A stretch of DNA of 64,000 nt, taken from an uncultured Planctomycetaceae bacterium. Its GTDB lineage: Bacteria; Planctomycetota; Planctomycetia; Planctomycetales; Planctomycetaceae. The notes beneath the pieces are model-generated. The model was not told the origin of the DNA. It ran no database searches and worked only from the letters and a program-made list of their open reading frames with translations. The position numbers and the translations under genes are program-made. Location of the stretch: positions 1 to 64,000 of the forward strand of contig CAIQIE010000209.1 in NCBI GenBank assembly GCA_903871805.1. The letters run 5' to 3'. Shown here piece by piece: positions 1 through 55,657 of the stretch. Each line of letters begins with the position of its first letter. Position 1 is the stretch's first letter.

Positions 1-3000
1 AGGCAGAGCGGTCGGATTGACCAGCATCCACAGTGCTTCATCGATCAGCAGTTGCTCAGCAGCGGCGGCCGGGGATTCCTGAGCAACGGCGGCAACGGTC
101 ACCTGTTCCGGGGACTGAACCGGCACTTCAGGAGCCACCATGTCGGCAGCATCAGGAGCAACAGGTTCGGCCTTCGCCGGGCGAACTTTCGCGGCTGACG
201 GCAGCAGTGACGTCAGCAGAGTTTCGTTGGCGAGAGCTGCCAGAGAATCGGCTTCGAGCGGGCTTTCTGAGGCGGTGACGGAGATTACGAACGGACGCGC
301 GTCGCTCCATGCACCGGACGTGCCCATGGAATTGAAACCGCGGACCCAGAACCGATAGGTTCCGTTTCTCAGAGCCTTGTCATCGGGCAGGGTGTAATAG
401 GCTTCCGTTCCGGTCGGGTTCAGCTGGAAGCTGGTGACCTGCAGCACGATGGTCTCATTCCGTTCGAGATCCCGGATCAGGATTTCGTAGCGGAAGGAGG
501 CTTTGTCGTGAGTCCATGAGAAGACGGGCGTGCTGTCATTCAGCGTTCCGCCGGGTCCGGTGATGGTTGGGGTCAGCGGGTCTGGAACGTCGATTCTCAG
601 ATTGAAGTTGGAGCTCCATGCGCTGTATTCGCCCGAGTTATTGTAGCCTCGGACGCGAGCGATGTAGGTGGTTTCCTTCAGGCGTTGTGCTGTCGGCACC
701 TTGAAGGACTTGGTGGTCAGGCCGTTCTGCAGAATCACGGAAGTCTGACGACCGGTTGCCGGATCGACTTCGCTAACCTGCAGCTGGTAGAACGGAGCAT
801 CCAGGTCTGTCGTCCAGACGAAGGTTGGGTTGGCATCATCGACGGAGCCCGCTGGATTGGCCACGGGGCCGACGATCTTTGGAATCAGCGGCGTGGGTTC
901 ATCGATGGTGAACGTGAACAGAGGACTGTATTCACCGGCTTCGCCCGCACTGTTGATACCACGAACCCACGAGCGATACTCACCCTGCGGCAGATTGACG
1001 AGGGAAGTAAACGAGTTGGTCGTCAGGTCTGACTTGCGGATGATCTGATACTGACCGGTGGTCATGTTGTTGACCCACAGATCATAACGCACAGCGCGAT
1101 CAACGGCTGTCCATGTGAACGTTGGATTTACGGTGGGTACGATCTTGCTTTTGTTGGGTCCCAGCGGACCGGTCATCACCGGCGCGGCGGGTGGCAGCAC
1201 GTCAACAGTGAAGCTCAGCGTAGGACTCCATGGGCTGACCCTGCCATTGGCATTTGCGGCTCGGACCCACGCGACGTAGCTACCCTGAGTAAACAGAGTT
1301 GGGTCGAAGTATGTCTGGGATCCGGGGATATCGGACTTTCGCAGGTACTGAACCTGACCCGTTGTGATATTGTTGACCCAGAGATCATAGGTTGCAGCGC
1401 CATCCACAGCAGTCCACGTGAATCGCGGATTGGGGTTGGTGGTCAGGGCGGTGGGGGACAGCAATGTGGGAGCAACCGGGATCGGTGCGACCAGATTGAA
1501 CTGAACCGGGCGGCTCCATGGGCTGAGTTCACCGACGGTATTGGCAGCGCGTACCCAGACGTTGTAGATACCATCCTTCAGCGGACTGAAGTGTGTGTAT
1601 TTGGTGCCGCTGTAGTTGGTGCGATAAATCACGCGTTCGCCGGTGGTTGCATTCTGCACCCACAGCCAGTAGGTCGAGGCATTCTGCGAAGTTGTCCATT
1701 CAAATTCCGGGGACGAGTTTGCAATATCGCCCAGTGGTTTGATCAGCGTTGGTGTTCCGGGAGACGGAACATCTACCGTGAAGAGGACGTAGTTGCTCCA
1801 TGCGGACAGTTGTCCGTTGATGTTGCCCACGGAACGAACACGGGCGCGGTAATCAAGTTGTTCGAACTGACGCGTCGCGGTGTAGCTGTTGGTGGTTACG
1901 GACGTGGTCAGGTAGTTGGCCCACGCCTTTGTGGTGGGATTGTACCGGTCGACTTCCAGAGTGTAGCTGGCGGTATTGCCGGAGGTTGTCCAGTTAAAGA
2001 CGGGCACTGGATCGGCGAGGATGCCTGTTGGAGACAGCATCACCGGGACGGATGGCAGCGGGATCACGGTACCGGTGAGCGTATACTGACCGATAGCGCC
2101 GTACTGTCCGGTGGAAGAGACGACAACGTAGTACGTGCCCTGAGTCACCTTCGCCGACAGGGAGGCGAACAGACTGTTTGAGGGATCATCACGAACGATG
2201 AGGTTGCCATTGCTGTCTCGCAGTTCCAGCACGAGGTCGGCATTGGTACCGAAAGTCAGAGCGTTATTGTTGAAGATCGTCTTCAGGTTCAAGCCTGTGA
2301 CGGAGAACGAGATATCTCCGGAGTCTGTTTCGAACTTGTAAACGTCCACATCATCATTCTGGCTGACGACGCCCTTCTGCAGGATGTCTGGAGCGGTCAC
2401 GATCAATTGCGTGGCTGTGGCAACGGTATTCCCGGCATCGTCAGCGCGGAATGCGACGGTTTTGTTGGTGGTGGCCGTCAGCACCTGGAAGTCGTCCTGA
2501 ATGCTGTTGGGGCCGTTGGAATCGGGAGCCACCACCCATGTTTCGCGTTCCGATCCATAGGGAGCCCCCATGATTGGTCCGAGGTCTGGTCGACCGCCGT
2601 CGTACTGTGCTGTCTGGTTGCCGTTGGCATCATAGACGCTGTGATGCAGCAGGTTCATGGTATGGCCAACTTCATGAGACGCCGCGAGGGCGATGCCCTT
2701 CACGTGGTCCGAGCCACCCCTGCCAACGTTGTCAGAAAACACGTAGCACGTGTTGACCGCGCTGTTATTGAACGAACCGAGATACGCGATGCCTCCGGGG
2801 CTTCCGATCCATGAACCATTGCCGCCGATGGAGACCAGCATGGTTTCGAAATCGTTATAGGTCCCTGGGTCAATCGTGGTCACGTTGATGCGGAATGGGC
2901 TGAAGTCTTCGGCAACGCGATACCACGTTTCCGTGATCATATCCAGCTCGGTATCGCTGAAGGTCGTCAGGTCATTGTCGATGTCAAACACCGGCGTCAG

Positions 3001-53968: not shown

Positions 53969-55657
53969 TCACGGCTGCGAAGTGGTTTTCATTTCATTTC
54001 CGGCTGAGCATTGCATCTTTCTGAAAACGATCAATACTGGTGACGTCGGATCTGAAGATTCACTTTCAATCACATCTGTTCGGCAGTCATTAAATTCTTC
54101 CGCCAGCTTCAAAACTGCTGCCGCCTCTTCCTGCCCCCCGGAATGCCCTCGGTAAGCAATCACTGTGATCACTCCACCCGGACGCAGTATTTTCTCAGAT
54201 AGCCTGAGAGCCTTTACTGTGGATTCCGCCTGTGTGGTGTCTATCTTGTTACTTCCTGGCAGGTAACCAAGATTAAACATCACCGCGCCAAATCCGGTAA
54301 TTTCCTGCGGTAAAGCAGTAATAATTCGTTCGATCTCCTTTGCGTGATCTCCGTGCAGCAGTTGAACCCCTGCAAGACCGGCTTCTCTGAGTCGTTCCCG
54401 TGTGTTGGTAATCGCTGTTTGCTGAATATCAATCGCAAACACGTTTTGGGTCTCTGTTAATCCCGCCAGAAACACGGTGTCATAACCGTTACCGGCTGTG
54501 GCATCCAGAACTGCATCTCCGCGAACGACCGCACGTCGCACGATTGTATGAGCCTTTGAAGTGAGCGAATTGCCCCGCCGGATCAAAGGCGTTGTTGCCT
54601 GAGTTTTACCGATCGCTTTCTGCTGGATGCTTAAAAATTGTTCCGCTGCCCATGGGGCCAGTAGTGAACCATAAGAACCCAGTCCATTCAGTATCCCAAC
54701 GTGCGGATACTGATGATGAACCTCCATCACAACCTCACGCCGCCTGGTGCCAGCACGAATCCCGGAAACATGCCCCTTCACTCTACACGGACCATCCACC
54801 ATGACCGGCAATGCGGATAACAGTTCGTTCCTGCCGGCATCTGTTGTTTCGGAAGTCAGATCTTTTCGGTCGTAGGTTGCACCCAGCAAGTATGTGGTCG
54901 CGGAACTGGGTACTGACTGATCGAAGTTAAAAGCATGATCAGGTGTTAACCAGTAATCTCCAACAACAGCATCATATGCGAGTGGATTTTCCAGTTGAAT
55001 TTTTAGGATTTCTCCTCGAAGCGGATGATCTGGAATTTCAGGAAACCAGGGATTTCCTACACCGGAAGCCCCCTGACAAAACACGATTCGATCGGCGGTC
55101 AGTTGCATGGAGGAAATTTGCACATGCTTTTCGTGCACAGAAATCCCGGTTGCCGGGTCCAGATCAGCGTCGATGTACTGGTGTTCTCTGCGGAAGAACT
55201 GTGCCGTACATCGCAGAAACGCTGGCACGTTTAGGCGAGCACCTTCCATTAAAAATCCAACAGGTCGGCCCTCTGGCCCGTGAATAAGTTCGACCAGATC
55301 GCGAACCGATCCATATCGCTCGTTCAGAAAAAAATCGCGGTCTCCCTGAGAAACAAAACTTCGAAAAACACTGATCTTTTGGTAAATTTTTTGTACGACC
55401 GCGTCTTCCACACGACTGTAAAACTGCTCCGCCTGGATCACCTTCGACGCGTAATCCTTTTGTAGTGTGAACTTTTTTCCACTAATAGGCATTATCAGCC
55501 CAGCGGCGACGGTTGACGCGCATGGGCGAGCTGAAGAATTCACCAGGGTGACAGCTTTTGACTGCCAATGCAGCTGCCATGCCAGCACGGAACCGGCGAT
55601 TCCCTGACCAAGAATGACTATGCGTTCAGAACGAGGGCTGCTCACGAAAGAATTCAC
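53969..55657 (-). CDS. Fusion: FAD-dependent (DAO/MnmC1-like) oxidoreductase + MnmM/YtqB-like class I SAM methyltransferase
   Basis: N-term: IVILGQGIAGSVLAWQLHWQSKAVTLVNSS...AAGLIMPISGKKF. C-term: AHTIVRRAVVRGDAVLDATAGNGYDTVFLAGL...FAIDIQQTAITNTRERL...GAVMFNLGYLPGSNKIDTTQAESTVKALRLSEKILRPGGVITVIAYRGHSGGQEE. GTG start. Confidence 0.85.
   Translation of the reverse strand: MNSFVSSPRSERIVILGQGIAGSVLAWQLHWQSKAVTLVNSSARPCASTVAAGLIMPISGKKFTLQKDYASKVIQAEQFYSRVEDAVVQKIYQKISVFRSFVSQGDRDFFLNERYGSVRDLVELIHGPEGRPVGFLMEGARLNVPAFLRCTAQFFRREHQYIDADLDPATGISVHEKHVQISSMQLTADRIVFCQGASGVGNPWFPEIPDHPLRGEILKIQLENPLAYDAVVGDYWLTPDHAFNFDQSVPSSATTYLLGATYDRKDLTSETTDAGRNELLSALPVMVDGPCRVKGHVSGIRAGTRRREVVMEVHHQYPHVGILNGLGSYGSLLAPWAAEQFLSIQQKAIGKTQATTPLIRRGNSLTSKAHTIVRRAVVRGDAVLDATAGNGYDTVFLAGLTETQNVFAIDIQQTAITNTRERLREAGLAGVQLLHGDHAKEIERIITALPQEITGFGAVMFNLGYLPGSNKIDTTQAESTVKALRLSEKILRPGGVITVIAYRGHSGGQEEAAAVLKLAEEFNDCRTDVIESESSDPTSPVLIVFRKMQCSAGNEMKTTSQP

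Follow-up and report, generated by a model that had tools for sequence, protein, structure and literature searches.

In Bacilli the radical-SAM protein MnmL (YtqA) is encoded in one operon with the methyltransferase MnmM (YtqB). The 2024 work of Jaroch is said to assign the first step in Bacillus to this radical-SAM protein, with no DAO enzyme involved, and its abstract reportedly mentions fusion proteins. MnmL is listed beside MnmC for the cmnm5U pathway in a review from 2025 (PMC12548931), and cmnm5U34 itself is made by MnmE/MnmG using glycine (PMC9976899). In E. coli MnmC (MnmC2-MnmC1) the two active sites are located about 45 Å apart and act independently (PMC3648344); a fusion therefore need not imply channelling, and coordinated expression suffices. 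Cho et al. searched their comparison set for an oxidoreductase and a methyltransferase joined in a single gene or operon, and no such case turned up (PMC9976899). A published DAO-MnmM fusion was likewise not found in our literature search, which had most subscription-journal papers outside its reach.

The window, i.e. the whole analysed stretch of 64,000 nucleotides from an uncultured Planctomycetaceae bacterium, contains one 562-aa open reading frame which, as an earlier sequence-only reading had proposed, begins with a DAO-type FAD domain and ends with an MnmM/YtqB-type methyltransferase (Table 1). It resembles E. coli MnmC in carrying on one polypeptide an FAD/DAO domain and a SAM methyltransferase, for which successive action on U34 is predicted here. 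In contrast to MnmC the order is reversed, with the FAD domain first, the methyltransferase is of the unrelated MnmM type and not MnmC2, and the carriers belong to other phyla; the reversed order and the MnmM type had both been recognised correctly by that reading. Characterised MnmM proteins (YtqB; B. subtilis, S. aureus, plants) stand as separate proteins, whereas here MnmM is fused. MnmL, which acts with MnmM in Bacilli, would be comparable as an alternative supplier of the cmnm5-to-nm5 step, although its protein family is unrelated to the FAD half. The product of the fusion gene is probably a bifunctional cmnm5U34 oxidoreductase and nm5U34 methyltransferase assembled independently of MnmC, a reading based on domain identities, conserved linkage, co-occurrence, the absence of alternatives over cut-offs and the conservation of key residues, all of them drawn from sequence.

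Table 1. Features of the fusion gene in the window, and F genomes without an MnmM match
Feature	Position	Strand	Details and basis
Fusion gene: N-terminal FAD oxidoreductase and C-terminal MnmM-type methyltransferase	53969..55657	minus	single 562-aa ORF, GTG start
FAD/DAO domain (family F)	residues ~10-346, 54620..55630	minus	Pfam DAO, E 3e-14; FAD-half profile A2, 402 bits; residue comparison; own clade
FAD-domain motifs	residues: GxGxxG 17-22, AAGL 51-54, Trp236, Arg301, NGLGSxG 324-330		
Interdomain linker	residues 354-362, 54572..54598	minus	low confidence, pLDDT <50 (AlphaFold2)
MnmM-type SAM methyltransferase domain	residues 365-546, 54020..54565	minus	NF053511 match (365-546); PDB 8h0s alignment; Foldseek; published mutants
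Ten F genomes lacking an MnmM match at E ≤1e-20 (G108, G112-G120)	loci L126, L135, L140, L153, L155, L162, L163, L165, L166, L171		

No strand had been named for 53969-55657 in the earlier reading. The plus strand across this interval has many stops, the minus-strand frame is uninterrupted, and a purine-rich stretch is found directly upstream of its GTG. Pfam recognises DAO at residues 12-339 (E 3e-14) and PF06962 (rRNA_methylase) at residues 406-536 (E 3e-32). In an AlphaFold2 model, for which 41 fusion sequences served as input, both domains are well formed (mean pLDDT 89), and in the alignment of relatives with the same architecture conserved columns span both halves.

Relatives of the FAD half, called family F here, were collected with a profile built from a 38-row FAD alignment and run against genomes of named organisms, which gave 80 loci; the single window protein as a query of genome contigs and a family-F protein as a query of a plasmid collection gave no match. 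The combined and non-redundant set comprises 95 F loci, of which 46 are fused, 37 have a separate mnmM on the fetched stretch and 12 are without MnmM nearby. Planctomycetota, Verrucomicrobiota, Hyphomicrobiales and Gammaproteobacteria are represented among them, some of the taxon labels being metagenome-bin labels that may be wrong. The order is always F and then MnmM. At the 37 split loci F comes first on the same strand and its end usually overlaps with mnmM, with a gap of at most ~215 nt in those listed, and when split mnmM loci were taken as the starting point an F homologue was present immediately upstream on the same strand in 12 of the 15 fetched. At these 12 loci the spacing between F and mnmM ranges from -196 to +11 nt and is often -4. 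On a quick tree the fused or split label changes 11 times, and at least five of these changes are forced by well-supported branches. Pairwise distances in F and MnmM are correlated (r 0.66, the best of 1000 permutations reaching 0.14). This conserved linkage by fusion or operon supports the role in the U34 pathway that the sequence-only reading had predicted for the protein.

The fusion is real and no assembly accident, because nearly half of these distinct FAD-half relatives are fused alike and the split ones have mnmM beside them, in several phyla. There is next to no probability that it is an assembly or annotation artefact of a metagenome bin. The bin of the window is indeed fragmented (446 contigs, 87.5% complete) and holds a second fusion copy, on contig C169, which most plausibly belongs to a related species, but the artefact reading is refuted by dozens of independent genomes with the same architecture and without internal stops, single-contig ones among them (for example G057, G059 and Acidobacteria bacterium Mor1, where the fused copy is situated on a 6-Mb contig).

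The protein encoded on C169 (G000:C169:1-8506, L050) is 58% identical to that of the window, and its gene has the same neighbours, namely isocitrate dehydrogenase, an LRR protein and a Gfo/Idh-type protein. At the DNA level the contig is 80-82% identical to the window and, over 3.9 kb, 90% identical to a contig of genome G016. A paralogous second copy was considered and rejected on account of the shared neighbouring genes and the high identity to another genome's contig; as the sequence comparison suggests, C169 most likely stems from a related species whose DNA was binned together with the window's own.

The assignment of the C-terminal half to MnmM is firm, by cut-off, fold and residues alike, and methylation of nm5(s2)U34 is the activity predicted for it. 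The NCBIfam model NF053511 (tRNA_U34_MnmM) matches it with 154-157 bits against an equivalog cut-off of 135. In Foldseek the AlphaFold2 model of this half is superposed on the solved MnmM 8h0s with a TMt of 0.88 at 35% identity, and 3eey was matched as well. B. subtilis MnmM mutants at K11, D34, N101, Y104, K110, Y141 and H144 are nearly inactive, and Y104F has reduced activity (PMC9976899). According to the 8h0s alignment, six of these seven essential residues are kept in the fusion protein: D393, N462, Y465, K471, Y502 and H505 correspond to D34, N101, Y104, K110, Y141 and H144. The seventh, K11, is replaced by His370, and a histidine at this position is found also in two other solved MnmM-type proteins, 3eey and 3lby. 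The earlier naming of this half as MnmM/YtqB-like was thus well chosen.

A survey of 99 related genomes, including the window's own, revealed MnmM over cut-off in 51, about half of the matches lying in open frames 530-640 aa long, the others in frames of ~190-340 aa. Within the family of the window 39 genomes carry both F and MnmM, none MnmM only, one F only (a genome 79% complete) and 21 have neither of the two (p 2e-15, Fisher test); when a single genome stands for each genus outside the window's own, the same counts are 22, 0, 1 and 20 (p 2e-11), and over all 99 genomes 42, 9, 7 and 41 (p 6e-12), these p values overstating independence because the genomes are related. The exceptions follow family lines, the nine MnmM-only genomes all being members of f2 and the F-only ones, in six of seven cases, members of f3. 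In ten of the 12 genomes without MnmM near F, a genome-wide search at E 1e-20 detected no MnmM (Table 1), and six further f3 genomes have F with no MnmM match, so F does not always need MnmM. For the ten genomes the predicted end product is nm5(s2)U, unless an unknown methyltransferase takes part; no recurrent methyltransferase-like neighbour of the lone F genes was seen by eye in 11 ORF-listed loci. Since both F-only and MnmM-only genomes exist, the two steps are separable. In the nine f2 genomes concerned (G066, G070, G076, G079, G082, G088, G091, G094 and G097) MnmM is accompanied neither by an FAD half nor by MnmL or MnmC2 over cut-offs, and these genomes perhaps use the ammonium route of MnmEG.

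The sequence-only reading had described the FAD half as “MnmC1/DAO-like”. Its DAO character stands, and membership in MnmC1 is supported neither by its score, which against MnmC1 (TIGR03197) is 42-45 bits and far under the cut-off of 174, nor by a firm phylogenetic grouping. The best-scoring curated family is ThiO (TIGR02352), with 63-65 bits against a cut-off of 250.8. As the FAD half lies below both cut-offs, “MnmC1” denotes a proposed job and no membership. In trees of 63 and 36 DAO proteins, in which annotated E. coli and plasmid records served as MnmC1 references, family F forms its own clade (support 100/100) on a long branch apart from MnmC1 and ThiO, and is not placed among unrelated amino-acid oxidases, a position that the earlier reading had regarded as incompatible with its proposal. 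Grouping of F with MnmC1 has a support of 91/75, and grouping with ThiO is unrejected (p 0.27); a place beside MnmC1 is favoured by these trees. Judged from its letters, the FAD half represents a DAO subfamily of its own; it resembles MnmC1 by context and chemistry, yet it cannot be filed as MnmC1, and its function is a predicted one.

Among the structural matches of the FAD half (Foldseek) iminodiacetate oxidase is the best, followed by glycine oxidase and the FAD part of MnmC, with sarcosine oxidase matched too. The substrate of iminodiacetate oxidase is an N-substituted glycine, like cmnm5U. ThiO and iminodiacetate oxidase (IdaA), the top neighbours in sequence and structure, have in common with the FAD half the DAO fold and an Arg at the carboxylate-binding position, and they oxidise free or N-substituted glycine. 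It might be argued that the FAD half simply oxidises free amino acids or glycine in the manner of ThiO and came to be linked to mnmM without any functional tie, considering that ThiO is its nearest curated family, that glycine and sarcosine oxidases are close in structure and that the trees do not reject a grouping with ThiO. This is very unlikely, however: the score reaches roughly one fourth of what the ThiO cut-off demands, the GHxxxG loop of ThiO is absent, and the gene is tied genetically to mnmM rather than to thiamine genes, by a linkage that is found again in different phyla, has switched several times between the fused and the split state and comes with near-perfect co-occurrence in the window's family. 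Moreover, a separate true ThiO is encoded elsewhere in the window's genome (265.6 bits, over its cut-off), and thiamine synthesis therefore has no need of the fusion gene.

Arg301 is invariant in family F and aligns with Arg567 of E. coli MnmC, just as Gly259 and Gly330 align with Gly518 and Gly619 of that protein. In the profile alignment to glycine oxidase Arg301 corresponds to Arg302, the carboxylate-binding residue of that enzyme. Because an Arg is common to all DAO enzymes compared, Arg301 is not diagnostic of MnmC1. Most members of F have NGLGS[KR]GSL as the loop on the flavin side, which is near the LGSRGL of MnmC1 (LGS[RK]G being a further likeness to the FAD half of E. coli MnmC) and unlike the loop of ThiO. 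Trp236 is invariant throughout F and sets it apart from all other DAO proteins compared, Tyr being usual at this position in ThiO and in most MnmC1; substrate recognition may therefore differ. Most of F have an acidic residue, Asp or Glu, where the second strand of the FAD fold ends (residue 40 of the fusion, minus-strand codon near 55540). In the branch of the window this residue is Asn, and the window's close relatives included in the comparison have Asn or Tyr. The equivalent acidic residue is absent in two of the seven MnmC1 compared, that of E. coli included.

As the sequence-only reading had anticipated, the genome of the window encodes MnmG (813 bits) and a full-length MnmE (236 bits, slightly under the cut-off of 252.6), and within this 87.5% complete genome no MnmC1 over cut-off and no match to MnmC2 (PF05430) was found. 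MnmL (TIGR01212 radical SAM) over cut-off is present neither in this genome (G000) nor in any MnmM-bearing relative, and both MnmL and MnmC1 over cut-offs are absent in 14 F genomes reached through other loci, most of which represent other orders or phyla. If this organism makes mnm5U from cmnm5U, the search therefore leaves the FAD half as sole candidate for the first step.

It could also be that the MnmM half works on U34 and that the cmnm5 group is not the target of the FAD half, which would act on some other nucleoside or wobble-U intermediate. The replacement of the usual active-site Tyr by Trp236 throughout F would agree with this, as would the many Gemmataceae, and some others, in which F has no MnmM partner, and the fact that no curated oxidase family covers the FAD half. 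Such a substrate is nevertheless unlikely, given that Arg301 and LGS[KR]G match enzymes acting on glycine-type carboxylates, MnmC1 among them, and that the cmnm5-to-nm5 step would be left in these genomes with no MnmC1 or MnmL over cut-off.

For the two-step action on cmnm5U34, we infer the substrate, the reactions, their order and the direction from operon to fusion. The fusion protein would act on the tRNA wobble uridine downstream of MnmE/MnmG. Its N-terminal FAD domain would oxidise the N-CH2-COO- unit of the glycine-like side chain of cmnm5(s2)U34, with Arg301 holding the carboxylate and the hydride passing to the flavin, and hydrolysis of the imine would release glyoxylate and leave nm5(s2)U34. 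The MnmM domain would then flip out U33-U34, Asn462 and Tyr502 would activate the amine, and its methylation with SAM would yield mnm5(s2)U34. In evolution an F-mnmM operon may have been fused more than once, in constant order and independently of the proteobacterial MnmC.

With moderate confidence it is proposed that family F is an undescribed and independently recruited cmnm5U34 oxidoreductase, i.e. a third route in addition to those of MnmC1 and MnmL, which serves as the partner of MnmM in several phyla, has been fused repeatedly and in F-only lineages (many Gemmataceae) would lead to nm5(s2)U as the end product. Where no MnmC1 or MnmL over cut-off is found, family F is a concrete candidate for the oxidoreductase working ahead of MnmM, and evolution would have built the same two-step wobble enzyme from other parts and in the opposite order. 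If this is confirmed, tRNA modification could be annotated more widely, in many Planctomycetota as well as in scattered representatives of other phyla. Whether the two steps have to be coupled is a question for which the lineages with split, fused, F-only and MnmM-only arrangements provide a natural experiment.

Two further observations concern the partners of MnmM. MnmL over cut-off occurs in 11 of the 99 relatives, never together with MnmM or F, and MnmL-family genes and MnmM (51 genomes) are thus mutually exclusive in this set, unlike in the Bacilli operon. In Neisseria gonorrhoeae NZ_CP119142 an MnmC1 protein over cut-off (417 bits; L225:5551-7170), with no MnmC2 match at E 1e-10, is encoded 3.6 kb from an MnmM homologue (L225:1985-2389), the frame of which is broken by a stop in this record. 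The case is an independent sign that MnmC1 can accompany MnmM.
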